Of a DNA stretch of 64,000 nucleotides, positions 19,816 through 42,410 are shown piece by piece. A program made the position numbers and the translations under genes. The stretch comes from Ostreibacterium oceani. GTDB taxonomy: Bacteria; Pseudomonadota; Gammaproteobacteria; Cardiobacteriales; Ostreibacteriaceae. The stretch lies in NCBI RefSeq assembly GCF_009362845.1, contig NZ_WHNW01000001.1:269889-333888 (forward strand), given 5' to 3'. Under the pieces are notes generated by a model. That model searched no databases, had not been told where the DNA came from, and was given only the letters and a program-made list of their open reading frames with translations. Every line of letters begins with the position of its first letter. Position 1 is the stretch's first letter.

Positions 19816-19890
19816 GTCAACATGACGGTAATCAACATAAACGGAATAATTCCTTATCTGAGGTCGCTATTCTTAAACTAGACGAGATTG

Positions 19891-22344
19891 ATGTATAACG
19901 AGCATTTTGGCTTTAATGAAGCCCCTTTTTCAATTTCTCCTGACCCTCGTTTTCTCTATATGAGCGAGCGTCATCGTGATGCGCTGGCGCACTTAATTTA
20001 TGGTGCTGGCGAAAACGGTGGATTTGTGCTGTTGACTGGTCAGGTCGGCACAGGGAAAACCACGTTGATTCGCTCGCTACTGTCACAAAAGCTTGAAAAC
20101 ACCGATATTGCAATGTGCCTGCATTCTGGGTTGTCGGTGATTGACTTTGTTGCATCGGTTTTGGACGAGCTTGGCATCGACTATGTTCCCAATCCGTCAT
20201 CGCTCAAACCGCTGGTTGATGCGCTCAATCGTTATTTGCTAAGCGCGCACGCGAATGGCCGTCAAACCGTATTGATTGTCGATGAAGCACAAAATTTAAG
20301 CCGTGAAATACTAGAGCAAGTTCGCCTGCTAACAAACCTAGAAACAGATAGCCAAAAATTACTGCGCATTATTTTGGTGGGGCAAGAAGAGCTGCAAGCA
20401 CTCATTAATCGCGATGATTTGCGTCAGTTGTCCCAGCGTATTACCATGCGTTATCACTTGACCGCACTCAACCCGAGCGAAGTAAACGAATACGTCGCGC
20501 ACCGCATCAAAGTCGCCAAGGGCAACCCCAGTGTATTTGCCGCATCCGCTACGCGACAAATTTACAAACTAACTGGTGGAATACCTAGACTAATCAATGT
20601 CCTATGCGACAGGGCTTTGTTGACTGCTTATAATGAAGGCGTTTATCGCGTCTCGAGTAAACACATTCAAAGCGCTGCTGAAGAAACCTTGCCGTTAAAA
20701 ACGCAAACAACACCAGCAAAGCGCCGAACGGGCGCGGGGTTTGGTTTGGGGCATGCTATTGCGTTACTACTGGTTGCTGGTGGCAGTTATGGTGCTTATC
20801 GCTACTCGCAAGAGGGTGATCAGTTTGTCGATACGATAACGAGTCGTTGGCCGCTCTCGGTGTTAGCGATTTGGCAAGATACGCCAAGCCAAGCGCTCGA
20901 TACGACCGATGTGTCTAATGCAGGTGACCGTACGGACGCAGCAAACGGAAGCGACAAACCATCGGCAGCGCTAACGGACGCGCAAACAACTTTGCAAAAA
21001 ACCGCGTTGGTGGCAGATTCACAGGCAGATTCACAGGTAGGCCCAGCAAGAGCGCCTCAGCCAGAGGCGCAGCCTGACCTTAGCGCAATCGGTATTTCAT
21101 CGGTGGGTTTGGCAGACAGTTCAACGCAAGAAGCGCCAAGTAACACTGATGTCGCTGGCAATGACAGCGGCAATGACAGCGGCGATGAAAGGAGTGGCGA
21201 ACCGAAAGCGGTTGCTGATATTGCATCTGACAATGCCAGCTCTGACAATGTGGTTTCACGTGAAACCAACTTATCGGAGGCGCCCAAAAATCCAACAAAC
21301 AATACGCCAGTAAACGATGCGCCAACAGACAATCCGCCAACAGACAATCCGCCAACAGACATTGCCAATGCTGATGAATCGCCTGCTAGCCGCCTTGCTA
21401 TCGAAGCCGACGAAGCCCTTAAAGCCGACCGTAGCGAAACAAGCTCAGCAACAGCAACGCCCGACGGCACGTCAGAAGTGGCAACGCCTACCGATGTAGC
21501 CGTGATAAGTACCGAACCAAGCACGATAAATATCGATGATAGTGCAGTAAATAAATCGACAAATAAAGCGACAAATAAAGCAGCGCCCACCGCAAGAGTA
21601 TCTGCCACAAAAACGGCAGATGAAAACGCGCAGGCGCAAGAGCTATCTGTTTCAAATCCGCCCACTTCAAATTCATCTAATGCAAAGCCACCCATTGCAC
21701 CGACCTGGCGAACAGCCAAATTGGGGCAAACCGATGGCGTTGTTACGCTACTAAGAGACTGGCAGTTGCCTACCGCGATACCCGCTAACCAAACGGCATG
21801 CCAGTTCGCAGAAACACACAACATGCGATGCGTCAATGGTCGCGGTGGCTTTCCTGTACTAAGGCAAATCAATCGGCCTGCACTACTGGAGTTAACCGAC
21901 GCAGACAATAAACAATGGTTGCCCGTTCTCGCGCTCAGCAAAACCCATTTGACTGCGACAATCGATGGCCAGCCCACCGAGGTTGGGTTTAATGAGATAG
22001 CGCCTTATGTGACTGGTCGATTTGTTGTGCTGCTGGAAGCGCCAAATGTTTCGTTACAGATACCGCCTGGCTTTGAGGGTGAGCAGGTTCGTTGGTTGCG
22101 CCAGCGGATTGCCATTGCAGAAGGCCGTGATTTTCGTGATATCAATGAATCTTTGCGTTATGACAACGCGCTGGTTGATAAAGTAAAACAGTTTCAAGAT
22201 CAGCGACAATTGTTGGTCGATGGCATTGTTGGTAACGAAACCCTACAATACTTGTTTAATGTCGTGGCAGACGAGAATACGCCACTTTTAAGTCGTACCA
22301 TTCGTTCGGCTACGGCAATAAAAGCTACCGAAGTCGAGCAGTAG
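19891..22344 (+). CDS. gspA: GspA/ExeA-type AAA ATPase with peptidoglycan-binding C-terminus
   Basis: 817 residues from ATG 19891 (a TTG directly precedes it). Residues 1-270 are the ExeA AAA domain: NEHFGFNEAPFSISPDPRF opening, Walker A GQVGTGKTT, Walker B VLIVDEAQNLS and the GGIPRLINVLCDRALLTAY end. A membrane segment (IALLLVAGGSYGAY) follows near residue 290, then about 330 residues of low-complexity Ala/Asp/Thr/Pro linker with TDNPPTDNPPTD repeats, then a conserved periplasmic region (TACQFAETHNMRCVNGRGGFP onward) ending in a peptidoglycan-binding_1 domain (VKQFQDQRQLLVDGIVGNETL). With GspB it helps pass the type II secretin through the cell wall. A parS-like palindrome lies in the linker. 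Confidence 0.9.
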   Translation: MYNEHFGFNEAPFSISPDPRFLYMSERHRDALAHLIYGAGENGGFVLLTGQVGTGKTTLIRSLLSQKLENTDIAMCLHSGLSVIDFVASVLDELGIDYVPNPSSLKPLVDALNRYLLSAHANGRQTVLIVDEAQNLSREILEQVRLLTNLETDSQKLLRIILVGQEELQALINRDDLRQLSQRITMRYHLTALNPSEVNEYVAHRIKVAKGNPSVFAASATRQIYKLTGGIPRLINVLCDRALLTAYNEGVYRVSSKHIQSAAEETLPLKTQTTPAKRRTGAGFGLGHAIALLLVAGGSYGAYRYSQEGDQFVDTITSRWPLSVLAIWQDTPSQALDTTDVSNAGDRTDAANGSDKPSAALTDAQTTLQKTALVADSQADSQVGPARAPQPEAQPDLSAIGISSVGLADSSTQEAPSNTDVAGNDSGNDSGDERSGEPKAVADIASDNASSDNVVSRETNLSEAPKNPTNNTPVNDAPTDNPPTDNPPTDIANADESPASRLAIEADEALKADRSETSSATATPDGTSEVATPTDVAVISTEPSTINIDDSAVNKSTNKATNKAAPTARVSATKTADENAQAQELSVSNPPTSNSSNAKPPIAPTWRTAKLGQTDGVVTLLRDWQLPTAIPANQTACQFAETHNMRCVNGRGGFPVLRQINRPALLELTDADNKQWLPVLALSKTHLTATIDGQPTEVGFNEIAPYVTGRFVVLLEAPNVSLQIPPGFEGEQVRWLRQRIAIAEGRDFRDINESLRYDNALVDKVKQFQDQRQLLVDGIVGNETLQYLFNVVADENTPLLSRTIRSATAIKATEVEQ
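21251..21268. other. Variant parS-like palindrome inside gspA
   Basis: TGGTTTCACGTGAAACCA is a perfect 18-bp palindrome carrying the invariant parS centre TTTCACGTGAAA; it differs from canonical parS (TGTTTCACGTGAAACA) by T-to-G on one arm and the symmetric change on the other at positions next to the ends. It codes for VVSRETN in the variable linker. Confidence 0.7.
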
Positions 22345-22345
22345 C

Positions 22346-23524
22346 ATGTCACAAATTTTAGATGCCATCGATAAAGCCGAAAAGTTACGCCAAGACGCGC
22401 TGGCAAACAGAACACTAGACGATGAAGGCAAGTATCACTTGCTTTCACAGGCAAAATCGCGGCAATCACGATTGAAAGCGCTCAAGTTACCGATATTGAT
22501 TTTTATCGCCTTGGGCGTGGGCGCAACAGGCGCGTACTATGTGAGCGGGGCAAATAACAAACGAGCGGCTCAGGTTGGTGTAGGTGGTTTGACATCAAAT
22601 AATCAGGTTGACGTGTCTGTAAGCCAAGCACCAACAAGCCAAGCACCAACAAAGCAAGCACCAGATAACAGTGAGCAGCCAGCGATACCAACAGCGAATC
22701 AGCACAAAGATAACGCTACAAAGGGCTTGGCAGACACAGCAGAGCCACTCGCAGCAGAGTCGCTCGTAGCAGAATCAGGAGTAAATCAGAATATATTGGC
22801 TGACGAAGCCGCTACCCAGCTCGCTACCCAGCCCGCTACCCAGCCCGCTACCCAGCCCGCTACTCAACCCGCTGCTCAGCCCGCTGCTCAGCCCCCTGCC
22901 CCTACTCCGAATGAAATTAGCAGTGAAGTCAGCAGCCAAATTAGTAAGAATGCTAGCGATCGAAGCCAGCTTGCCAGCTTGGAGATGGCAACAGACGAAA
23001 CAAGGCCCAATCGCGAAGCCCTCGGTGAAGCATTAGTAGAGTTAACGCCTATTTCAGACGCCTCTAATTCAAGAGACACTAATGGCGTTGATAAAAAAGG
23101 TGTTGTAACAGAGTTGATTGCCTTGACCGCATTAACGTCTTCCGCTCAGTCGCAGGCTAAAAATAAAACCACCAGTACAAAGAAATTAGACAATACGTCG
23201 AAGTCCACCACTAACCCACGGGTTAATGAGGTAGCGTCGAAAAATAATTATCGACCAAACGCGGCAAATGCCAATCAGCCAGTTGCGGTGACTAGCGCCA
23301 GCGCCAAAAACAACCCGCAGGCAACGCCGGCGTGGAAAAAGTCGATACAAATTAGCGCATTAGTCTATGATGATAATCAGGCAAAACGGTTTGTTCTAAT
23401 TTCAGGCGCGAAGGTTTTTGAAGGCGGGCAAATTCCTAGCACGCAGACGCGTGTGGTGAGAATTCTACCCACAGGAATCATTATCAATGATGGCGGCGGT
23501 GATGTGCTGATTAGCACGCACTAA
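22346..23524 (+). CDS. gspB: GspB/ExeB-like general secretion protein B
   Basis: 392 residues, starting one base after the gspA stop. Short cytoplasmic N-terminus (MSQILDAIDKAEKLRQDA), one membrane segment (LPILIFIALGVGATGAYYVSG, residues about 48-68), a 240-residue low-complexity periplasmic linker, and the C-terminal GspB domain (KKSIQISALVYDDNQAKRF, EGGQIPSTQTRVVRILPTGI). Partner of GspA. The linker contains seven tandem 12-base units encoding ATQP/AAQP repeats. No gspC-N genes are in the window, so the rest of the secretion apparatus must be elsewhere. Confidence 0.87.
   Translation: MSQILDAIDKAEKLRQDALANRTLDDEGKYHLLSQAKSRQSRLKALKLPILIFIALGVGATGAYYVSGANNKRAAQVGVGGLTSNNQVDVSVSQAPTSQAPTKQAPDNSEQPAIPTANQHKDNATKGLADTAEPLAAESLVAESGVNQNILADEAATQLATQPATQPATQPATQPAAQPAAQPPAPTPNEISSEVSSQISKNASDRSQLASLEMATDETRPNREALGEALVELTPISDASNSRDTNGVDKKGVVTELIALTALTSSAQSQAKNKTTSTKKLDNTSKSTTNPRVNEVASKNNYRPNAANANQPVAVTSASAKNNPQATPAWKKSIQISALVYDDNQAKRFVLISGAKVFEGGQIPSTQTRVVRILPTGIIINDGGGDVLISTH
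22811..22894 (+). repeat. Seven tandem 12-bp units in gspB
   Basis: GCTACCCAGCCC and close variants repeated seven times, encoding Ala-Thr-Gln-Pro or Ala-Ala-Gln-Pro. In-frame copy-number change would alter only linker length. Confidence 0.93.
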
Positions 23525-23575
23525 ACTACGGTTGACGCAATCCCAGCTGGTCAAATGTTTACTACCATCTGCATC

Positions 23576-23602
23576 AGTTTTAGCAGTTTTAGCAGTTTTA
23601 GC
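23576..23602. repeat. Three exact 9-bp tandem units before tmcA
   Basis: AGTTTTAGC is repeated three times in the gap between gspB and the preferred tmcA start. Its presence supports this stretch being non-coding. Confidence 0.9.
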
Positions 23603-23615
23603 GGCGCGTACGGCA

Positions 23616-25895
23616 ATGGATTCACGTGAAACAACAGTGGTGCCTTCGCGACTTGCTCGGTGTGTTATCTTACATGAAGCGACTGAGGCAGGCTGCCCAC
23701 TAGAACAGTTGCAAGCATACCTGAAAAAACAGGATAAAAGGCTCAATATAGCAGAAACCACAGTCATCGACTTAATATCGGATGGTAATCAAACACGGTG
23801 GCTAGGCCAAGAACTAGGCGACACGGTGGTTATTTTTAACTATAATTTGAACCTGAATAACTGGCTGTGCATACTAAACTGTATTCGTGGCGGACATACG
23901 GTATACCTTGTTTATGTGCATCATACGCTAACGAAGGCGCAAAATTGCTTGACGGTGCAAACTACGCTTCCACGATTAGCCGATGTACAGCTAGCCGATG
24001 TACAGCAGGTGGTCAATCCATTTGTCCATCAGGTATTGCTACCCCAGTTGCGGCAAATAGCATTGGTACCCAAAGTAATAGCAAAGATAACACCAAAGAC
24101 AGCGCTAAAAGCAAACGAAATAATACCAAAAGCATCAAATAACAATGGCTTGCGCGATGAGCAAGCCGAAATATTACAGTTTTTTTGCAGTCACCGTAAC
24201 CTTGATGGCTATGAAATGTGCCAAATCATCGGCAAGCGCGGGACAGGCAAATCAACACTGCTGGGTCAGTTGGCCGAGTTATATTGCCGCAACGGACAAC
24301 AGGTGGTAATTGTCGCACCGAGTCGAGGTTCGGCAAAAAATTTACTGAGTCAGCTAGCAAATGTTTCACGTGAAACATGGCAATTTCTCGTGCCTGATAA
24401 AATAACAACACTCACGAAAAGCAAAATACGCTTTGATGTGCTAATAATAGACGAAGCAGCTACACTGCCTAAGGCGTTTATGGATTACGCTATAGCAGCG
24501 TGTAAAAATAACGCAGGCCAGTTGATTGCCGCAACCACAACCGATGGTTACGAAACAACGGGGCAAAGTTATCGAGAGCATTATCTTGAAACCCCATCAA
24601 AAGCAGTCAGGATTTTTCAACTACAGCAAATACAGCGTTTTGCGTGTGACGACCCCTTATTTTTGCTAACGCAGCAATTTATCCCCACAGAGTCGGTCTC
24701 TGCTGTTGCGTTACCAGACGGTGTGCACATGATGGATACCCAATCGGTTATTGATGCAGGTATCATGCAAGGTTGCCATGCATTATTGCAAAAAGCGCAT
24801 TACAAAAGCACACCAAATGATGCAATGGCGCTTTATAATCGCCCTGCATGGTTTGCAATTGCTGTTAAAAATAATTGGATTTGTGCGGTTGCTTATGTAT
24901 TGATAGAATCCTTACCAGCGGAGGTTCAGCTTGACGAGTTGATAGCAGGTCGGCGACGTGTGAAATCCGCGTTTACGCAACAGTCGGTATTGGCTGCTTA
25001 TGGTCATATTGGCGCCCAAATGGATACTGTCGTACGATATCCCATCGCAAGAATTGTTAGAATCGTTACTGCACATGAGCAACGTCGTTGTGGGTATGCA
25101 ACAATGCTCGTCAATGAAATTGAAAAGCACTTGCTGGAAAAGTCAATTACGATGATGAGCGCATCATTCAGTGCGCGTGAATCGAGTTTGCGTTTTTGGT
25201 GTTCGGTCGGGTTTACGCCCGTTAAGTTATCCTTATCATTGAATAAATGGGACAATTTACCTGCGATATTGATGTTACGCGCGGTAGATCAACATGCGTG
25301 CTATCCAGCGGTAACTAAAACACAGTCAATTCACAAACAGGTAGCCCATAAACAGGCAATCCACGCACAGACAGTCCATACACAGACAATTCATACACAA
25401 GAAATCAAGCAATTGTATAATTTTTTCCAGCACCATGTCGCTTGTTATCAAGCCTTTTATCAGACCAGTCAGGCGGCGCAGCGGACACTACAGACATTAA
25501 TGGATTTAGACGTCGCCATTAAAGCTAATATGGAAACGAGTATTGCAGCCAATATTGCAGCCGATATGGTAGCTAACAGGCGCAGTACGATGACTGCCAA
25601 TAGACAGGCATCACAACAAAAAATAGCAGAAACATCATTGGATGAAATGGATTTATTAAATGAAATTAATAAATTAGAAAAAAGTCATCGGCCAGCGTCG
25701 TATTTTTTACCCGTATTGATTAACAGTCCGTGTTGGAAGCGATGGCAGCAGCTGCAGCAACAACCGTTAGGTGAAATCCAGCATCGTATCCTGACCTATT
25801 TGCCATTTGAGGCGATAAAAAAGTCAAACCAACCAATAATTAAGCAGCTGTTGACGCAGTTAGCGGCAACAATCAAAGCGAATCGCAACGCTTAA
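23616..25895 (+). CDS. tmcA: TmcA, tRNA(Met) cytidine acetyltransferase
   Basis: 759 residues from ATG 23616; an in-frame TTG at 23532 would add 28 residues that consist mainly of the tandem repeat, and the ATG places the conserved TRWLGQELGDTVVIF segment at the family distance. Helicase part: Walker A GKRGTGKST, DVLIIDEAATLP, IAATTTDGYETTGQSYREHYL. GNAT acetyltransferase part: RIVTAHEQRRCGYATMLVNEIE. It acetylates the wobble cytidine of elongator tRNA(Met). Longer than E. coli (671) because of inserts, including a HKQ/HTQ repeat (IHKQVAHKQAIHAQTVHTQ) after the GNAT domain. Two parS-like sites lie within it. Confidence 0.88.
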   Translation: MDSRETTVVPSRLARCVILHEATEAGCPLEQLQAYLKKQDKRLNIAETTVIDLISDGNQTRWLGQELGDTVVIFNYNLNLNNWLCILNCIRGGHTVYLVYVHHTLTKAQNCLTVQTTLPRLADVQLADVQQVVNPFVHQVLLPQLRQIALVPKVIAKITPKTALKANEIIPKASNNNGLRDEQAEILQFFCSHRNLDGYEMCQIIGKRGTGKSTLLGQLAELYCRNGQQVVIVAPSRGSAKNLLSQLANVSRETWQFLVPDKITTLTKSKIRFDVLIIDEAATLPKAFMDYAIAACKNNAGQLIAATTTDGYETTGQSYREHYLETPSKAVRIFQLQQIQRFACDDPLFLLTQQFIPTESVSAVALPDGVHMMDTQSVIDAGIMQGCHALLQKAHYKSTPNDAMALYNRPAWFAIAVKNNWICAVAYVLIESLPAEVQLDELIAGRRRVKSAFTQQSVLAAYGHIGAQMDTVVRYPIARIVRIVTAHEQRRCGYATMLVNEIEKHLLEKSITMMSASFSARESSLRFWCSVGFTPVKLSLSLNKWDNLPAILMLRAVDQHACYPAVTKTQSIHKQVAHKQAIHAQTVHTQTIHTQEIKQLYNFFQHHVACYQAFYQTSQAAQRTLQTLMDLDVAIKANMETSIAANIAADMVANRRSTMTANRQASQQKIAETSLDEMDLLNEINKLEKSHRPASYFLPVLINSPCWKRWQQLQQQPLGEIQHRILTYLPFEAIKKSNQPIIKQLLTQLAATIKANRNA
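23618..23633. other. Degenerate parS-like site at the tmcA start
   Basis: GGATTCACGTGAAACA matches canonical parS (TGTTTCACGTGAAACA) at 14 of 16 positions; the right half is perfect. It begins two bases after the tmcA ATG and encodes DSRET. Confidence 0.5.
24362..24377. other. Perfect canonical parS site inside tmcA
   Basis: TGTTTCACGTGAAACA is identical to the consensus chromosomal parS bound by ParB; the symmetry extends one base each side (24361-24378). It encodes NVSRET between the two halves of the helicase domain. With the variants at 21251 and 23618 it makes a cluster spanning about 3.1 kb. Confidence 0.85.
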
Positions 25896-33035: not shown

Positions 33036-36000
33036 ATGCTGACCTATATTAGCGAAAACTTATTGACTAGCGTCAAGTCGGAGATGCTGACCACGCTAGA
33101 TAAAACTGAGAATCGGGTTGCCGATATTTTTGAGTTTGGCGAGACGCACGGCTCAGAGGAAGTGATTCAGCAGATTCATAGTGTTCGTGGCGCACTATTA
33201 ATGCTTGCGGAAAAAGAAGCCGCCAGCTTATGTGACAGTATTTTACAGAGTATTAAAGATGCCATCCACCATGCGGCGTTTGAAAACGACGAATTGGCGG
33301 CGGCTTTTTTAAGTCTAAAGCAATACGTTATCTCGCTTTCCGCGAGTAAAAACGACACCTCGTCATTAATTAAGGCGCAAACGGGGCTTGCTACGCAAAA
33401 CAACGCACATCATTTTGGCGAAGACGAGCGTGCTATGCTAAAAAAGGCTGCCGACAAATTGCATGAATTAGGCGAATCTGATGATGAGGCATTATGGCAA
33501 TCTGTTTACAAGATAACCAAGGCAATCATTGGGTTAGTTAAAACGCTAGAGTCGTATGAGTTTATTTGGCTAACACAGCAGCTAAGTATTTTGAATATCA
33601 AACAAGAGATTAGTACTGAGGCAGCAGATAAAACACGCTACCTTACAACCTTTGCAAACTATCTATTACAGATTTCAGCGCACGGCGAAGCCTTAGGTTA
33701 TTACGAACCAGCGCAGCCTGTCATCGATCAATTGCAAGCGCTTACAAGCAATACAAGCAAGGCGCTGAAAAATGATTTTTCACCGCCTGCGTATAGTTTA
33801 CTGGCAGAGGATAGCGACATTAGTATCGTTTTTCCCATTTCAGCAGAAACCATAGAAACCATCGCTTTTTTAATTAAAAAGGAATTGGCGGTTTGTAAAA
33901 ATGCATTCGAAAATGCGCTTGCTGAGGATAAATTATCCGATAAATCAGTGCGTGCCAGTTTAAAAGCAGGAATGCACCTGCCAAAAGCAGCGTTTCATTT
34001 ATTGGCGTTTTATCCGGGTAATGCGCTAATCTATGATACAGAAACGATTTTGGATAACGGCCAATTTAATGCTGAGCAAATTGCTGAATATGCAAGAAAT
34101 TTAGTGCTAATTGAAGATGCGCTTTGGGGGTTGAAATACCTTGATAAAGACGGCGTTATCAATGCCCAAGAAAACCTTGAGAGGCAACAAGCACACGCTT
34201 TGTTTATGGTTGCAAATGCGGCAAAAGTCATCGTTGCTGATATGGGATATCACTTTTTTAAAGGTACCCGCGATCAGTTACTGGAACGATTTGATTCGCC
34301 CCAGCATTTAGATTTTATTCAGATTGCGAGCCAAGTACATCAATTTATGGCAGCTAGTCTATTATTGGGAGAAGATAAATTATCTAAATTGCTGGCGAAA
34401 ACTGAGCAAGCCCATTTGTTCGTTAGCGCACAGCCAGAGCTTATGCAGCAAAAACCCATTGCTAATGCTTATCTGGACTTGCTCGTTAGCTACGAAGTCG
34501 CTTTTGACCAGCTACATTCTGCCATGGCAGTCGATCGTCGCGCGTTAAAATTACTTGAAAACACACAAAAAAGATTTGCTTCAGTGATTAAATTTAGCGC
34601 TGATCAGGCCGTCGACGCGCCTTACGTGAGTCACACCAGCGCATCGAGTCAAGCAGACGAACCGTTTGATGGAATGACCGATGATGCGCTATTAACGGAC
34701 GGGCAGCAAGGGGCGATAGATAGCTTGCACGGGGAAGGTTTCAACACCGCGCAATCGGCTTTAGAAAAAGGCAGTACTGCACAAACAAATGGCGATGCAA
34801 GTGGCGATGCAAAAGCCGCCGACCAAGGGGTGCCCGCTGGCGAAGGTGGGCTGGGCGACAGCAGTGCTGGTTCAAGCCATTCCGATTCAAGTGGCTCGGG
34901 TTATGCCAGTCGAGCGGTGATAAATGAAAATATTCATTCACTTGCAACGGACGAAGTTGATGAGGAAATCCTCGACATTTTCCTTGAAGAAGGGATGGAT
35001 ATTGCCAAAAAATTAGCAGTGCTTGTCCCGAAATTGAAAGACAATTATTTTGACGAGACACTAGCGGGCGAGATACGCCGTGCCTACCATACCCTAAAAG
35101 GCTCTGGTCGAATGGTCGGTCTGAATGTTTTTGGTGAGTTTGCTTGGCAGCATGAAGAGCTATTTAACCGATCGCTGGCAGGCGAGTTCGCATTAAACGA
35201 TGATGCTTATGATTTGTTAATCAAATCAAATGAATTAATCAACCAGACCCTTAATACAAATCCATTTGCTGAAGACCGTGCTGCGCTGCTCATGGCGGCA
35301 GCGAGAGTCGAAGCCCTAAGAAATGAGCTATTGGGTAAAGACAAAAATGCGCAAGACATTAGTTCACTCAGCGAGTCTGATTTAGAGAGGCTAGCGGACA
35401 AGGTCGGCCAGTCAAAGGCACGGCAGAGTAGCGATGAACAGGCGATTGCGACGTTAGCCCAGCACCCTGCACTCGCTGATTCGGCGGATGGTGGGGAAAA
35501 CCACCATGAGAAAAAATCGACGGCTGGTAACGTGGTTGATGAAAATATTGACAAAATTGCCCAGACAGCGCAGTTAGTCGCGCAATCTGGTGATGTTGAT
35601 AGTCGCGATATGAGTGCGATGCTAAAAGCATTGGAACAAATCGACACCTCGAATCTCAATAGTGAACAATCGCAGATTTATGATGGGTTAACCGACATTG
35701 AAAATAGGTTGAGCGATTCTTGGAATAATCTGCCCTCACAGCAAAGCGCAGAAAAAATCGCAGGCGCGCTGAGCGCAATGGCCAGAGACAATTTAGCCGC
35801 ACAATTAGACGACACATTAGCCGATATTGATGAGATAAAATCTGCGTTGGCGCAACCCAAGATTGACTCGACTGAGACTGCAATCGATCATTTATCAAGC
35901 GCAACATCAAATGCGACTCAAGCACAATCGCTGTTTGACGCTTGGGCGCAAAACGGATTTGACTTTGGTGATGCATTTACGCGCTTAAAAGGCAATGTGA

Positions 36001-39000
36001 TTGAGACTGAACACCTTGTCAAGTCAGCCCAGCTAGATAATGTTGCACCGTTAGCTGAAAAGACCAGAGAAACACTCGACCAAGTTGAAACCAGAGCAGA
36101 TAAAGATAAGCCGCTAACGCAATCGGTTACGCAACCCATCGCCAATGCCATTACAGAAATCAGCCAGTTGCTGCAAAGCATTCAATCTGGGAAAACTGGC
36201 GCGCGCATTAACCCACAGACCTTGCAGGCGCTAGATACGGCGGTTGATGAGCTGAATAAAAACTATCAGCAAGTCCGATCTGCGTTGTCAGCAGCGGATA
36301 GTGAGGCTGCGACGGGTGAAGCAAGCGCGTCGGAGATAGACACTGCGGGAACAAACAGCGAAAACCAATTACCCGATCAGCCGACGACTTCGCCATTTAA
36401 TCAAACGCCTAGCACAGCAGCCGTTGATACAAGCGTTACAGACGAAGAGCAGCCGCTGCCTCAAGGTCGGCAAAAGGGTAGTGAACAAGTCGCCACGTTC
36501 TTGGAAACAGCAAGACCAAAGGTCCAAGCTTCCAAGTCCAATTTTTCTGAATGGGAAGCGTCCGCATTTCAGGCACGCGTTCCGCTCAATAAATTGCGCG
36601 ATAACATCGATGAGGTCAAGCGCGCAGGCAATCAAATAGAATACATTGACAATCAATTAGTTACCCAGTCGCTAACTGACACGTTAGATCAAGTCGCAGA
36701 CCACCCTGAACCCCCTCAGCCAATAGTGACTGAGCCAGTAAAGTGGGCGATTGATGATTTAGACCGTATGCACGAAGATTTGGCGAGTGGCAAGTCAGGA
36801 GAAGCGCGACCAGAGATTCTAGATGCGTTAATGCAAGCAAATTTGTCAATGCAACCACAATCAAGCGCAGCCCAGCAGCCACATTCAGATACGGCTGGGT
36901 TTGATATTAAACAGGTTGCACAGCAAATTATTGACGATTTGGGTACGGGAAATGAAGCAAACTACGATGCGGTAAGTCATGCAGCGTCATTTGGACAAAC
37001 GCTTGCACAAACCGCGCCACAAACAATGTCCCCGCCGCAAGTGCCCTCGCAGCAGGTGCCCTCTCAGCAAGTGCCTATACCACAGGCACCTGTGTCAAGC
37101 TACTTGGGTCAGCCGGGCGAGCTAACCCAGCAGTTAGAAAAATTTAAAAAAGCCTTATCGTCAAACGCGCCAAGTGAGTCAAAAAATGCGCTTGAATCTT
37201 CAGATTTGTCTTCAGGCCAGTCTGCTGACCAAGCATCATCGCTACCGTTTGATTTTTCTGAAGCAATTGATTCGGTTTATGATATTGAAGCGTCCATTGA
37301 CGAAAAAAATGCGCCATCATGGACTTGGGATATGCTAGCCAGCATAGAAGATACATTAATTGGTATGCAAGGCAAGGCTTTGTCTCCCGCTAATGCAGAC
37401 CTGCAAAAAGTCGAAAAAGCGCTAGACGCACTGGCAGATTCAAGCCGAGTGACGCCTAAGATGGCGAAAAATATCATCAATGATCTCATGGGGCTTCGCG
37501 CAGGGCTTCCTGGGCGAAGACAATACAGCGATACCCTTGAGAAATTCAATGAGCGCGCTGAGGACATTATTGAATCGACCGATACGGCTTATGCTGATTG
37601 GGCTTCTGCTGGATTTACCCCTGATGTTGAGTCGTTGGATAGCCTCATTGATCAAGTTGGTGCCATTAATCAAGTGGCAAACGAGGTAGACTACGGTGAA
37701 GCGGCAGAGCTATCCAGCCTGGTCGATTCGGTGCTAAATCGGATTAAATCTGAGCAAGTTAAGCCGTTTACCCCCGTTTCGGATAGCGTAAGCGAAGCGC
37801 TGGAGGAAATTGCCAGCGCGAAAGCGCGTGTCGACACAGGTAGCCGTAGTGAAAAATACCCTGAGCTACTTTCCGACTTAGACAGCCATGCGAAGGCTGA
37901 GCAAATAGGAGAGCCAATCTCAGGGTTGAATCAAGGCGCTGCATTAGTAGGACAAGCGGATTCACAAGATTCACAAGACGATTCACAAGACCATGCGAGT
38001 TCGGGCCATGCGAGTGACGCCAATACAGCAGACTTGGCACTCTCAGCGAAAAACACAGTACAGAAATCAACGCAAGCAGCAGCGCAAGACTACGAAAGCA
38101 GTAAAGACCAAAGCAGTAAAGACCAAAGCAGCCATGAAGCGCTTGTTGCGCCCGAATTGCCAGCGGCACAAGTCGCATTTTCTGAAAGGGCAGAGCAGCC
38201 CATTTCGAGTTCGAAGCAGCATTATAGTGCATGGCAAGCGGAAAATTATAACGCAAGCGAGCCGCTACAAGCGCTGACCACTGACGTACAGGGCATCAAC
38301 GAAGCGGCACAAGTCGCCGCGTATCAAGATGCAGAAGATTTAAGCCAGCATGTGACGGATATATTATCTCGGCTAGCGCAAGAGCAGGTTGTTCCTTCGA
38401 CAGCGACGGCGCAAACGATTGAATCAGCGTTGAATGAATTTTCGGGAATTCAAGAATCAACTGGGCAGGGTAAAGTGGCAACGGTTAGTCAAACCGTTGT
38501 CCAGCAGACACAAAAACAAGCACAAACTGAAGTACTAGGCGAGCCGATTTACACGAGTTTATCTGAGTCAGCGCTATCTGAGTCAGCGCTATCCGAAGCG
38601 GCGCTAAATACGCTAGACGCAAGTACCACATCAGGCGCAAGCACTGCATCAGCACCAGTGGAGAAGGCGACTTTTGATGCAAGCCGTCCTGAAATTAAAT
38701 TAGACCAAGTCGATGACAATATAAAAACGGCCCTTTCTGACGCGCATGCTAGCCTAGTTCCTGACCAAAAACCTGCCGCAAGTCCTGATGGAAATGCTGA
38801 TGGGAATGCTGATGGGAATACTGATGGGAATGCTGATGGAGCGCTTGGTACATCGTCGGCTATAGACGCAACGAATTCGTTGGATTTGGATATGGCATCC
38901 ACGGTTTATGAGGCTTTCGCTAGACAAGCACCGCAGCACATCGAGCGTTCATTTGAACAATTTGAAGATTGGCAAGCCAGTGACTTTGTAGACCAAGCAC

Positions 39001-42000
39001 CTTTGCAAGGACTACATAGTAGCGTAGATACGATTACTGATATTGCTAAATCAAGTGAGTTTCAGTCAGGCACGCGTTTAGGAGAAGCAGTCAGTGAGGT
39101 CCTGAGCCAAATTGCGAGAGACGGACTTACACCCGATGAAATTACGACAGACTATATTAAATCATCACTAGAAGCATTCCAGCAAAGTAGCCAAGCGATT
39201 CAAGCCCAAGCATCAGAAGGGGTTGAAATCGATGATGCATTAATTGATAGCGTTAGAAATCAAGCCATTGCGATTGCGGCGCAACAAAATCAAGAGACTG
39301 AATCTCAAGCAGGCAAAGCCGATACCGCCGCAACTGATGCCAGCGAAACCGATACCAGCGAAACCGACACCAGCGAAACCGATACATCAGGTGCCGCTGA
39401 GGCACCAGCGCTTAGCATGGCATCTCAAGTTTATCAGGAATTTGCTGATCAAGCACCACCATATATCGAACAGTCATTCGAACAGTTTGAAGACTGGGAA
39501 GCCAGTGCATTTACTGATCAGTCTACGTTGATTAATCTAAACGATAGCGTGGCAAAAATAACCCACATCGCTAAATCAACTGCATTTGATTCGGCGTTTC
39601 AACTTGGCGAAGCGGTTGGCGGGGTGCTTGGACAATTGGCGCAGCGCGACCAAGCACCGAATACTGAAACGACCGAAGCCATCGAAGCCTCATTAAGCGC
39701 CTTTGATTATAGCGCCAAAGCGATTCAAAATAATGCAGACGACATTGACATTGATCCGGCACTCATTGACCGCATTAATGCGCAGAAGGATTTGTACCCG
39801 ACTGATGCGATCGACGAATTAGGCGTAATGCCAACAGAGGATGCCGAAGCGCAGTCTGCTGAAACAGCGAATGAAATAGCGAATGAAATAGAGGCAGAGG
39901 GTGAAGTAGCAGCCGAAATAGCAGCCGAAAGAGCAACTGAAGTTGGCATTGAGGATGCGACGCCAGAGGCGCGCGCAGACGATGAGGCGGAGGCAACCCA
40001 GCAGCCATACTCCGTTACCGATGAAAACTCACACGCCTTTGGTGATGATGCCGATGGAGCCGTGGCATTTAATGACCCGAACAACCTAGACAGTACCATC
40101 TTAGATATTTTCATCGATGAAGCCAAGGAAATCCTGCAGCGTAATGAAATAAGCTTGCAAGAGTGGGGCGCATCGCACGATAATTTGAGCGCAGTACAAG
40201 AGCTGCAGCGTGGTATGCACACCCTAAAAGGCGGTGCGCGAATGGCAGAGATGACGGTTTTGGGTGATTTGTCGCACTACACTGAGAGTTTGTTGGATTT
40301 GATTGTTGAAGGCACCATTGCTAACAAGGACGCTGCGCATGTACTGCTGTCAGAAGGTCACGAGATTTCAAAAGACATGGTGTTTGCTGCAGAATCGAAG
40401 CGTTATATTTATGCTTCACCCCATTTTTTGCAGCGCCTTAGCGACTTTATCGAGAAAGAAACAGGCAAAGGGCTTGATATTAAAGCCCCAACGCGAGAAA
40501 TTGCTGCGGTTGATTTAGAAAGTCGTCCAACGCCTGCACAAACCACCAAAGACAAGTCTACAACGACTAAGAAGCCTTACAACATCCGTCTGCAATCGGA
40601 TTTGATTGAGAAACTATCCGCGTTAGCGGGAGAAGACGCGATAACTCGCGCGCGAATAGAGCGTAGCACAACCGAGCATGGTTTTCAGTTATCCGAATTG
40701 ACGCAAACGATTGTTCGTGTTTCTGAGCAACTACGTCGCTTAGAAAATGAAACAGAGACACAGATTTTATTCCGCCATGAAACCGACTTGCTCAAAGAAG
40801 AGGAGTTTGATCCGCTAGAGCTCGACCGTTTTTCGGAGATACAACAATTATCACGTTCGCTTTCTGAGTCGATTGATGATTTAGGCAATATTCGTGAGAC
40901 GCTGCATAATCAGTTAGACGATGTCAAGCAGGCGTTACGTGAGCAAGGCAATATTCAGCGTGAATTACAAGACAGCATCTTGTCAGCGACATTGGCAAGG
41001 TTTGATACGCTGGAATCGCGGCTCGCTCGGATTGTCGATCAAGTCGCAAATGAGCAAGGCAAGGAAGTGGAGTTACAAATTTATGGCGGTCAAGTTGAAA
41101 TTGAGCGCAATATGCTTGAAGATTTGCTCCCTGGATTCGAGCATACCATTAGAAATTCGTTGGCGCATGGTATTGAATTACCACAAGACAGAGAAGCGGT
41201 AGGCAAGCCCCGCAAAGGCCGTATTCGTATCGGAGTTAGGCGAGAGGGCGCAGAAGTCTGGTTTGTTATCGCAGATGATGGCTGTGGTGCTAATTTGTCT
41301 CGTATCCGCAATAAGGCTGAAAAACTGGGTATATTAGATGCCGATAAAGCCAACGACAAAAACTACCTTTTACAGTTGTTGTTTGAGCCAGGTTTTAGTA
41401 CGGCCGAAACCACCACACAGTTATCGGGACGAGGGATTGGTTTGGACGTCTTGCGTGAGGTCGTTCATGCGCGCCAAGGCAGTATCGAGATTGAAACCGA
41501 AGAAAACAAAGGCATGGCTACTTCGATTCGCCTCCCATTTACTATGTCGGTCACAGACGCGTTGATTGTCAAAATCGGCGAATATACTTATGCAACACCG
41601 ATTGCATCGATTGAAGGGGTTGCCAGAATTTCAATAGAAACTTATGGCAAGTTTGCCAACGGTGAAGTGGTTTACCACCACTACGGACAAAAGCGCTATC
41701 GACTCGAAAGCTTGTTAAATTATATTGACCCGAATGCAGAAAAAGTCAATTCGGCATTCGGTGTTCCTGTGTTGTTAATTCGTGTTGGGTCTGAACGACT
41801 GGCGTTAGAGGTCGAAGAGATTTACACGCGCCAAGAAATCATTATAAAATCGGTCAATATTCAATTAACCACGATTCCAGGTGTCGTTGGCGCCGCTATT
41901 TTGGATAATGGTCAACCCGTTGCTGTTGTTGAAATGGCAACACTGGGTCGGCAATTCTTACAACATCTGGCGATGGATACCCCGCAGCAAGTATCGTTAG

Positions 42001-42410
42001 TTCAACAGAATAAAGAAGAAGCCCTAGAAACGCGACTCAAAGTCTTGGTCGTTGATGATTCGATTACCATGCGCAAAATCACCACCAAAATTTTGGCGCG
42101 ATACGATATCGAAGCGCAAACCGCCAAAGATGGTGTTGATGCCATTAACGCCATTGCTGACTGGATACCCGACCTCATCTTATTAGACATAGAAATGCCA
42201 CGGATGGATGGTTTTGAGTTTGCGACACATGTCAGAAACGATAGTATTTACGAACATATCCCAATTATTATGATTACTTCGCGACACGGCGAAAAACACC
42301 GTAGGCGCGCGGCGAACATTGGCGTAAATGGCTATTTAGGCAAGCCCTATACCGATGATGTATTAATCAAAGAGATAGAGTCTGTCTTAGACACAAAATT
42401 AAAAAGGTAA
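33036..42410 (+). CDS. chpA: ChpA, giant CheA-type histidine kinase of the Pil-Chp system
   Basis: 3124 residues; Pseudomonas ChpA is about 2470. Domains: an N-terminal FimL/Hpt-like region (1-560) lacking a clear phospho-His; one true Hpt near residue 685 (AYHTLKGSGRMVG); six degenerate Hpt-like repeats between about 956 and 2250, each with F-x-x-W and L-x-x-x-V-x-x-I but no HTLKG; a second true Hpt near 2395 (MHTLKGGARM); a dimerisation coiled coil; HATPase (about 2690-2835) with RNSLAHGIE, ADDGCGAN and GRGIGLD; a CheW domain (about 2840-2980); and a receiver domain (2999-3124) with VVDDSITMRK and LLDIEMPRMDG (Asp 3051). Low-complexity linkers with short tandem repeats join the Hpt-like modules. 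It phosphorylates PilG and PilH. Confidence 0.93.
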   Translation: MLTYISENLLTSVKSEMLTTLDKTENRVADIFEFGETHGSEEVIQQIHSVRGALLMLAEKEAASLCDSILQSIKDAIHHAAFENDELAAAFLSLKQYVISLSASKNDTSSLIKAQTGLATQNNAHHFGEDERAMLKKAADKLHELGESDDEALWQSVYKITKAIIGLVKTLESYEFIWLTQQLSILNIKQEISTEAADKTRYLTTFANYLLQISAHGEALGYYEPAQPVIDQLQALTSNTSKALKNDFSPPAYSLLAEDSDISIVFPISAETIETIAFLIKKELAVCKNAFENALAEDKLSDKSVRASLKAGMHLPKAAFHLLAFYPGNALIYDTETILDNGQFNAEQIAEYARNLVLIEDALWGLKYLDKDGVINAQENLERQQAHALFMVANAAKVIVADMGYHFFKGTRDQLLERFDSPQHLDFIQIASQVHQFMAASLLLGEDKLSKLLAKTEQAHLFVSAQPELMQQKPIANAYLDLLVSYEVAFDQLHSAMAVDRRALKLLENTQKRFASVIKFSADQAVDAPYVSHTSASSQADEPFDGMTDDALLTDGQQGAIDSLHGEGFNTAQSALEKGSTAQTNGDASGDAKAADQGVPAGEGGLGDSSAGSSHSDSSGSGYASRAVINENIHSLATDEVDEEILDIFLEEGMDIAKKLAVLVPKLKDNYFDETLAGEIRRAYHTLKGSGRMVGLNVFGEFAWQHEELFNRSLAGEFALNDDAYDLLIKSNELINQTLNTNPFAEDRAALLMAAARVEALRNELLGKDKNAQDISSLSESDLERLADKVGQSKARQSSDEQAIATLAQHPALADSADGGENHHEKKSTAGNVVDENIDKIAQTAQLVAQSGDVDSRDMSAMLKALEQIDTSNLNSEQSQIYDGLTDIENRLSDSWNNLPSQQSAEKIAGALSAMARDNLAAQLDDTLADIDEIKSALAQPKIDSTETAIDHLSSATSNATQAQSLFDAWAQNGFDFGDAFTRLKGNVIETEHLVKSAQLDNVAPLAEKTRETLDQVETRADKDKPLTQSVTQPIANAITEISQLLQSIQSGKTGARINPQTLQALDTAVDELNKNYQQVRSALSAADSEAATGEASASEIDTAGTNSENQLPDQPTTSPFNQTPSTAAVDTSVTDEEQPLPQGRQKGSEQVATFLETARPKVQASKSNFSEWEASAFQARVPLNKLRDNIDEVKRAGNQIEYIDNQLVTQSLTDTLDQVADHPEPPQPIVTEPVKWAIDDLDRMHEDLASGKSGEARPEILDALMQANLSMQPQSSAAQQPHSDTAGFDIKQVAQQIIDDLGTGNEANYDAVSHAASFGQTLAQTAPQTMSPPQVPSQQVPSQQVPIPQAPVSSYLGQPGELTQQLEKFKKALSSNAPSESKNALESSDLSSGQSADQASSLPFDFSEAIDSVYDIEASIDEKNAPSWTWDMLASIEDTLIGMQGKALSPANADLQKVEKALDALADSSRVTPKMAKNIINDLMGLRAGLPGRRQYSDTLEKFNERAEDIIESTDTAYADWASAGFTPDVESLDSLIDQVGAINQVANEVDYGEAAELSSLVDSVLNRIKSEQVKPFTPVSDSVSEALEEIASAKARVDTGSRSEKYPELLSDLDSHAKAEQIGEPISGLNQGAALVGQADSQDSQDDSQDHASSGHASDANTADLALSAKNTVQKSTQAAAQDYESSKDQSSKDQSSHEALVAPELPAAQVAFSERAEQPISSSKQHYSAWQAENYNASEPLQALTTDVQGINEAAQVAAYQDAEDLSQHVTDILSRLAQEQVVPSTATAQTIESALNEFSGIQESTGQGKVATVSQTVVQQTQKQAQTEVLGEPIYTSLSESALSESALSEAALNTLDASTTSGASTASAPVEKATFDASRPEIKLDQVDDNIKTALSDAHASLVPDQKPAASPDGNADGNADGNTDGNADGALGTSSAIDATNSLDLDMASTVYEAFARQAPQHIERSFEQFEDWQASDFVDQAPLQGLHSSVDTITDIAKSSEFQSGTRLGEAVSEVLSQIARDGLTPDEITTDYIKSSLEAFQQSSQAIQAQASEGVEIDDALIDSVRNQAIAIAAQQNQETESQAGKADTAATDASETDTSETDTSETDTSGAAEAPALSMASQVYQEFADQAPPYIEQSFEQFEDWEASAFTDQSTLINLNDSVAKITHIAKSTAFDSAFQLGEAVGGVLGQLAQRDQAPNTETTEAIEASLSAFDYSAKAIQNNADDIDIDPALIDRINAQKDLYPTDAIDELGVMPTEDAEAQSAETANEIANEIEAEGEVAAEIAAERATEVGIEDATPEARADDEAEATQQPYSVTDENSHAFGDDADGAVAFNDPNNLDSTILDIFIDEAKEILQRNEISLQEWGASHDNLSAVQELQRGMHTLKGGARMAEMTVLGDLSHYTESLLDLIVEGTIANKDAAHVLLSEGHEISKDMVFAAESKRYIYASPHFLQRLSDFIEKETGKGLDIKAPTREIAAVDLESRPTPAQTTKDKSTTTKKPYNIRLQSDLIEKLSALAGEDAITRARIERSTTEHGFQLSELTQTIVRVSEQLRRLENETETQILFRHETDLLKEEEFDPLELDRFSEIQQLSRSLSESIDDLGNIRETLHNQLDDVKQALREQGNIQRELQDSILSATLARFDTLESRLARIVDQVANEQGKEVELQIYGGQVEIERNMLEDLLPGFEHTIRNSLAHGIELPQDREAVGKPRKGRIRIGVRREGAEVWFVIADDGCGANLSRIRNKAEKLGILDADKANDKNYLLQLLFEPGFSTAETTTQLSGRGIGLDVLREVVHARQGSIEIETEENKGMATSIRLPFTMSVTDALIVKIGEYTYATPIASIEGVARISIETYGKFANGEVVYHHYGQKRYRLESLLNYIDPNAEKVNSAFGVPVLLIRVGSERLALEVEEIYTRQEIIIKSVNIQLTTIPGVVGAAILDNGQPVAVVEMATLGRQFLQHLAMDTPQQVSLVQQNKEEALETRLKVLVVDDSITMRKITTKILARYDIEAQTAKDGVDAINAIADWIPDLILLDIEMPRMDGFEFATHVRNDSIYEHIPIIMITSRHGEKHRRRAANIGVNGYLGKPYTDDVLIKEIESVLDTKLKR
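35900..36250 (+). repeat. ChpA degenerate Hpt-like repeat 1
   Basis: Residues about 956-1072: LFDAWAQNGFDFGDAFTRL then GNVIETEHLVKSAQ. Aligns by eye with the other repeats and with the helix A/B part of the C-terminal Hpt, but lacks HTLKG. Confidence 0.55.
36479..36840 (+). repeat. ChpA degenerate Hpt-like repeat 2
   Basis: Residues about 1149-1269: NFSEWEASAFQARVPLNKL then DNIDEVKRAGNQIEY. The phospho-His position is occupied by a non-His residue. Confidence 0.6.
37517..37890 (+). repeat. ChpA degenerate Hpt-like repeat 3
   Basis: Residues about 1495-1619: AYADWASAGFTPDVESLDSL then DQVGAINQVANEVDY, LSSLVDSVLNRI. Confidence 0.6.
38164..38500 (+). repeat. ChpA degenerate Hpt-like repeat 4
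   Basis: Residues about 1710-1822: HYSAWQAENYNASEPLQAL then TDVQGINEAAQVAAY, LSQHVTDILSRLA. Confidence 0.6.
38785..38840 (+). repeat. 12-bp tandem repeat in a ChpA linker
   Basis: About four copies of GATGGGAATGCT-like units encoding Asn-Ala-Asp-Gly repeats between degenerate repeats 4 and 5. Similar short duplications occur at 38556-38600 (LSESALSESALSEAAL) and 39338-39390 (SETDTSETDTSETDTS). Confidence 0.85.
38890..39260 (+). repeat. ChpA degenerate Hpt-like repeat 5
   Basis: Residues about 1952-2075: SFEQFEDWQASDFVDQAPL then SSVDTITDIAKSSEF, LGEAVSEVLSQIA. Very close to repeat 6, so a recent duplication. Confidence 0.65.
39415..39780 (+). repeat. ChpA degenerate Hpt-like repeat 6
   Basis: Residues about 2127-2249: SFEQFEDWEASAFTDQSTL then DSVAKITHIAKSTAF, LGEAVGGVLGQLA. 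Nearest neighbour of repeat 5 in sequence and place. Confidence 0.65.

Follow-up and report, generated by a model that had tools for sequence, protein, structure and literature searches.

The window, a 64,000-nucleotide stretch of the Ostreibacterium oceani genome (positions 269889 to 333888 of contig C1), carries a segment with the gene order pepP-gspA-gspB-tmcA-glnS, in which three parS-like palindromes lie within the gspA- and tmcA-like genes (Table 1). An earlier note on this DNA had placed three such sites within 3.1 kb and had found no further copy in the window by eye. Scanning the window with the 16-mer at up to three mismatches returned exactly these three sites, confirming both the positions and the lack of another copy. 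In site 1, the 16-mer aligns at 21252 to 21267, inside the 18-bp palindrome, with two mismatches and an exact 14-bp core. Site 2 retains an intact right half-site and reads ATG GAT TCA CGT GAA ACA in its codon context. The 16-bp parS consensus is therefore represented by one perfect site and two sites with two mismatches each. Among database proteins, GlnS had its best match in Aliikangiella marina (58%), whereas a search with TmcA gave no relative. Further along the window, positions 33036 to 42410 form a single very large open reading frame of 3,124 amino acids.

Table 1. Window coordinates of the three palindromes and of the genes in and between which they lie
Feature	Position	Strand	Description
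gspA/exeA-like host gene	19888..22344	+	AAA ATPase with peptidoglycan-binding domain; PF13401, PF01471
parS site 1	21251..21268	.	TGGTTTCACGTGAAACCA, 18-bp perfect palindrome, located in the linker of gspA (VVSRETNL)
gspB-like gene, flanked by the host genes	22346..23524	+	PF16537
tmcA-like host gene (tRNA-Met cytidine acetyltransferase)	23532..25895	+	start probably ATG 23616
parS site 2	23618..23633	.	GGATTCACGTGAAACA, 2 mismatches (14/16), at the tmcA start
parS site 3	24362..24377	.	TGTTTCACGTGAAACA, perfect consensus, inside the region coding for the TmcA helicase domain (NVSRETW)

All three sites lie in frame within coding sequence, as the earlier note had stated, and each of them encodes the peptide SRET. 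The same note had assigned the sites to flexible regions, a description that suits sites 1 and 2 but is only approximate for site 3. Site 1 falls within the low-complexity linker that joins the ATPase and peptidoglycan-binding domains of GspA, and among the three sites it is the only one held by a plainly disordered linker. Site 2 lies immediately 3' of the first in-frame tmcA ATG (23616), the probable start codon, and site 3 coincides with a three-residue insertion relative to Escherichia coli TmcA (PDB 2zpa), inside the helicase domain.

The shared peptide raises the question of whether the palindromes are products of chance or by-products of SRET coding that bind nothing. SRET is in frame at three of three sites, the TGA frame is forbidden so that two coding frames are possible, and three loose matches arose in 2 of 100 shuffles of the window alone. 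The codons, however, do not follow from the peptide: SRET occurs six times in the DNA examined, and the TCA CGT GAA codons, a set with an expected frequency of 0.037 given the peptide, are confined to the three site copies. We also searched the whole genome (2,176,553 bp in 36 contigs; completeness, 100%), in which the three window sites were the sole matches to the 16-mer at up to two mismatches and again the only matches to the 14-bp core at up to one mismatch, while a reversed control pattern gave no match in the whole-genome scan. For comparison, we permuted the palindrome 300 times at constant composition and searched 1.85 Mb of the genome with each version, obtaining a mean of 0.53 matches; 12 of the 300 reached three matches anywhere, and none placed three matches within 3.2 kb. 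Even scatter through the genome, which the earlier note had named as the outcome that would count against a partition zone, is thus absent, and the only sites cluster within 3.1 kb.

Relatives argue in the same direction. One of them (G003) packs three sites into 2.9 kb, located in or next to ruvB and an acyltransferase gene; the site in the acyltransferase gene likewise encodes VSRET. We found no orthologous gspA/tmcA block in the parS loci of the relatives, except for a TmcA of 24% identity near the sites of one genome (G018), and direct conservation of parS within the gspA and tmcA genes of relatives was rejected for that reason. The site sequence and its clustering therefore recur in unrelated genes, a pattern that fits selection on the DNA. 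Taken together with the codon usage and the permutation results, this leaves an origin by chance or by peptide coding scarcely credible.

A single ParB protein passes the family cutoff in the genome. It carries ParB_N and HTH_ParB domains and is encoded within a pepA-rsmG-parA-parB-atpI-atpB... locus on contig C9, not on the contig of the window. The arrangement rsmG-parA-parB-atp is the classical chromosomal par neighborhood, and the genome thus has a chromosomal parA-parB operon. Alignment to Caulobacter crescentus ParB (6t1f) shows R173, T179, T184, and G201 at the recognition positions, and the GERRxR motif is present. R173 and G201 (the RxxG signature) are reported to be absolutely conserved in ParB orthologues, while Noc has Q/K/K/R at the four positions (PMC7383237). 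The recognition residues are thus of the parS type and not of the Noc or NBS type (Q173/K179/K184/R201). Considering that R173 and G201 are both present, the protein is expected to read parS. The earlier note had also counted the absence of a ParB gene among the outcomes that would speak against it; the organism has a chromosomal one.

The same assembly, rated 100% complete, was searched for SMC, ScpA, and MukB. No SMC protein exceeded the cutoff (best score, 26 bits versus 567), and neither ScpA nor MukB was found. The Smc-ScpAB part of an SMC-ParB-parS loading system was accordingly not found, a result in which an artifact of contig breaks may play a part. The lineage seems to be without Smc, ScpA, and MukB.

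The earlier note had proposed that the cluster is a nucleation zone for chromosome partition with oriC nearby. The dnaA gene, adjoining dnaN, is found at C1:218194-219471, outside the window and 72 to 75 kb from the parS sites; sucCD in turn adjoins dnaA-dnaN (C1:216889-221934). Cumulative GC skew has a local minimum at C1:258469, 11.4 kb before the start of the window, placing the parS sites at +32.7 to +35.8 kb from it. Mean skew is -0.085 across the 112 kb to the left of this minimum and +0.042 across the 114 kb to the right, where it is weak at first (mean of +0.016 from 258 to 300 kb). Among the contigs analyzed (1.85 Mb of 2.18 Mb), C1 is the only one with a minus-to-plus switch, and the remaining long contigs keep one sign throughout, apart from C7. 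On C7, the skew turns from plus to minus at 33.6 kb, a position that coincides with the single dif-like site (C7:31097), and this match supports such a reading of the skew.

C1 contains a second flip, a sharp plus-to-minus change at 146.6 kb. A compound copy of a multicopy insertion sequence (IS) with an integrase-core transposase occupies C1:145549-146658, exactly at this flip, and the same IS makes up the ends of eight further contigs. Because the flip point is an IS shared with eight other contig ends, an inversion or misjoin of part of C1 is likely. We rejected a terminus at this position, given that C7 has both the dif-like site and a plus-to-minus switch and that the flip on C1 coincides with a repeated IS. 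Elsewhere, mnmG (gidA) is split near residue 302 between C10:100641-101692 and C5:1-1064, and since both contig ends carry ends of one and the same IS, an insertion in mnmG is likely. C1 also holds TGTGCATTA repeats, mostly at 21-bp spacing, at positions 172789 to 173175 beside a reading frame of 2,739 amino acids.

Collectively, the origin likely lies near C1:258 kb, although this is not proven. The nearby oriC of the earlier note fits dnaA at 72 to 75 kb and a skew minimum at 33 to 36 kb on the same contig, but the exact oriC is not pinned down by these landmarks, with the second, IS-linked flip on C1 and no clear DnaA-box array found in the region of the minimum. Instead, DnaA boxes cluster most strongly, within the DNA analyzed, at C11:58951 in a 1.1-kb intergenic region. 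The surrounding interval (C11:58725-59812) has several DnaA boxes (TTTCCACAGAGTTATCCACAGCTTTATCCACG...TTTGTGGGTAACTC) and is a possible oriC or DnaA-titration site. The dnaA-dnaN intergenic region, which contains DnaA boxes in same-order relatives, has none in this genome, and it was rejected as oriC on that ground.

These observations bear on an alternative in which ParB does load at these parS sites, whereas oriC lies somewhere else, such as at the C11 boxes, and genome rearrangement has left the cluster not especially close to it. The box cluster on C11, the dnaA-dnaN region devoid of boxes, and the IS-linked rearrangement visible on C1 all lend it some weight. However, skew stays positive across C11:58951, no contig but C1 showed a minus-to-plus switch, and the position of dnaA and a skew minimum near the sole parS cluster would have to be a coincidence. 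We consider this alternative unlikely. In same-order relatives with both features on one contig, parS and dnaA are separated by 3 kb (G019), 24 to 31 kb (G002), and 73 to 91 kb (G007), and in the closed genome among them (G002) the sampled skew switches near dnaA. Two genomes of a family in the same order (f2; G016 and G020) have more degenerate parS-like sites located hundreds of kilobases from dnaA. Placing oriC by synteny with the closed genome was rejected, as gene order is too scrambled; the par-atp block of C9 alone stays near the origin of that genome.

We conclude that the three palindromes are, with high probability, the chromosomal centromere (parS cluster) of the ParABS system of the host. 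Computation gave the three sites and showed them to be unique and clustered; it also gave the ParB gene with its parS-type reading residues and the joint presence of dnaA and a skew minimum on the contig of the sites. Binding, spreading, segregation, and the equation of the skew minimum with oriC are what we infer. Counting against this conclusion are the C1 flip at 146.6 kb, the weak right-hand skew, the C11 DnaA boxes, and the f2 sites far from dnaA. The nucleation zone near oriC of the earlier note is largely supported by the unique cluster, ParB, dnaA, and skew, with oriC itself unproven and ParB loading a prediction. Most likely, ParB from the rsmG-parA-parB-atp operon on C9 loads at the three sites, of which those at 24362 (perfect) and 21251 (18-bp palindrome) would be strong and the one at 23618 weaker. 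By analogy with known systems, ParB dimers at parS would close as CTP-dependent clamps and spread across gspAB-tmcA, and ParA would then draw the origin-proximal segment poleward after replication. In Pseudomonas aeruginosa, parS must sit in a zone of ~650 kb around oriC (PMC5098823).

ParB could alternatively act here mainly on the expression of gspAB-tmcA and not in segregation. Site 2 overlaps the probable tmcA start, and P. aeruginosa ParB is described as repressing promoters adjoining parS3 and parS4 (PMC5521831). Such a role is nevertheless highly improbable, since the genome has no other parS sites to serve segregation, a promoter-like site was looked for around the tmcA start and not found, and the host genes vary in relatives, so that regulating them is not the conserved feature. 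A more specific form of the centromere reading is possible but tentative: a free-standing ParABS system with a single, wholly intragenic three-site cluster, one site of which overlaps the tmcA start, and in which ParA alone would move the origin and no classical condensin would be loaded.

These results give a probable position for the centromere in a little-studied gammaproteobacterial lineage and indicate where in the fragmented assembly to look for oriC. They also illustrate how parS is kept as a DNA word while its carrier genes change, a principle that is well known. The Bacillus subtilis Spo0J-parS consensus is TGTTTCACGTGAAACA, identical to the perfect site here, and the closest solved structures to the ParB of this genome include Spo0J. 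B. subtilis differs in having about ten parS sites (PMC7022226), which load SMC there, compared with three sites and no SMC or ScpA found here. The four parS1-4 sites of P. aeruginosa lie <16 kb from oriC, and one near-origin site is enough (PMC4368675). That system similarly combines perfect and mismatched sites in a small cluster; it differs in its preferred sequence, TGTTCCACGTGGAACA, and in the location of parAB, which is ~7 kb from oriC there and on a separate contig here. The nearest precedent is chromosome I of Vibrio cholerae, a gammaproteobacterium whose condensin is MukBEF. As in O. oceani, it has three sites, the natural parS1 sites, which lie ~65 kb from oriCI (PMC4091711); the host genes are different, and MukB was not found in O. 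oceani. Apart from the mildly unusual failure to detect either Smc-ScpA or MukB, the cluster is an ordinary case of a known system, in which intragenic, origin-proximal parS clusters have already been described.
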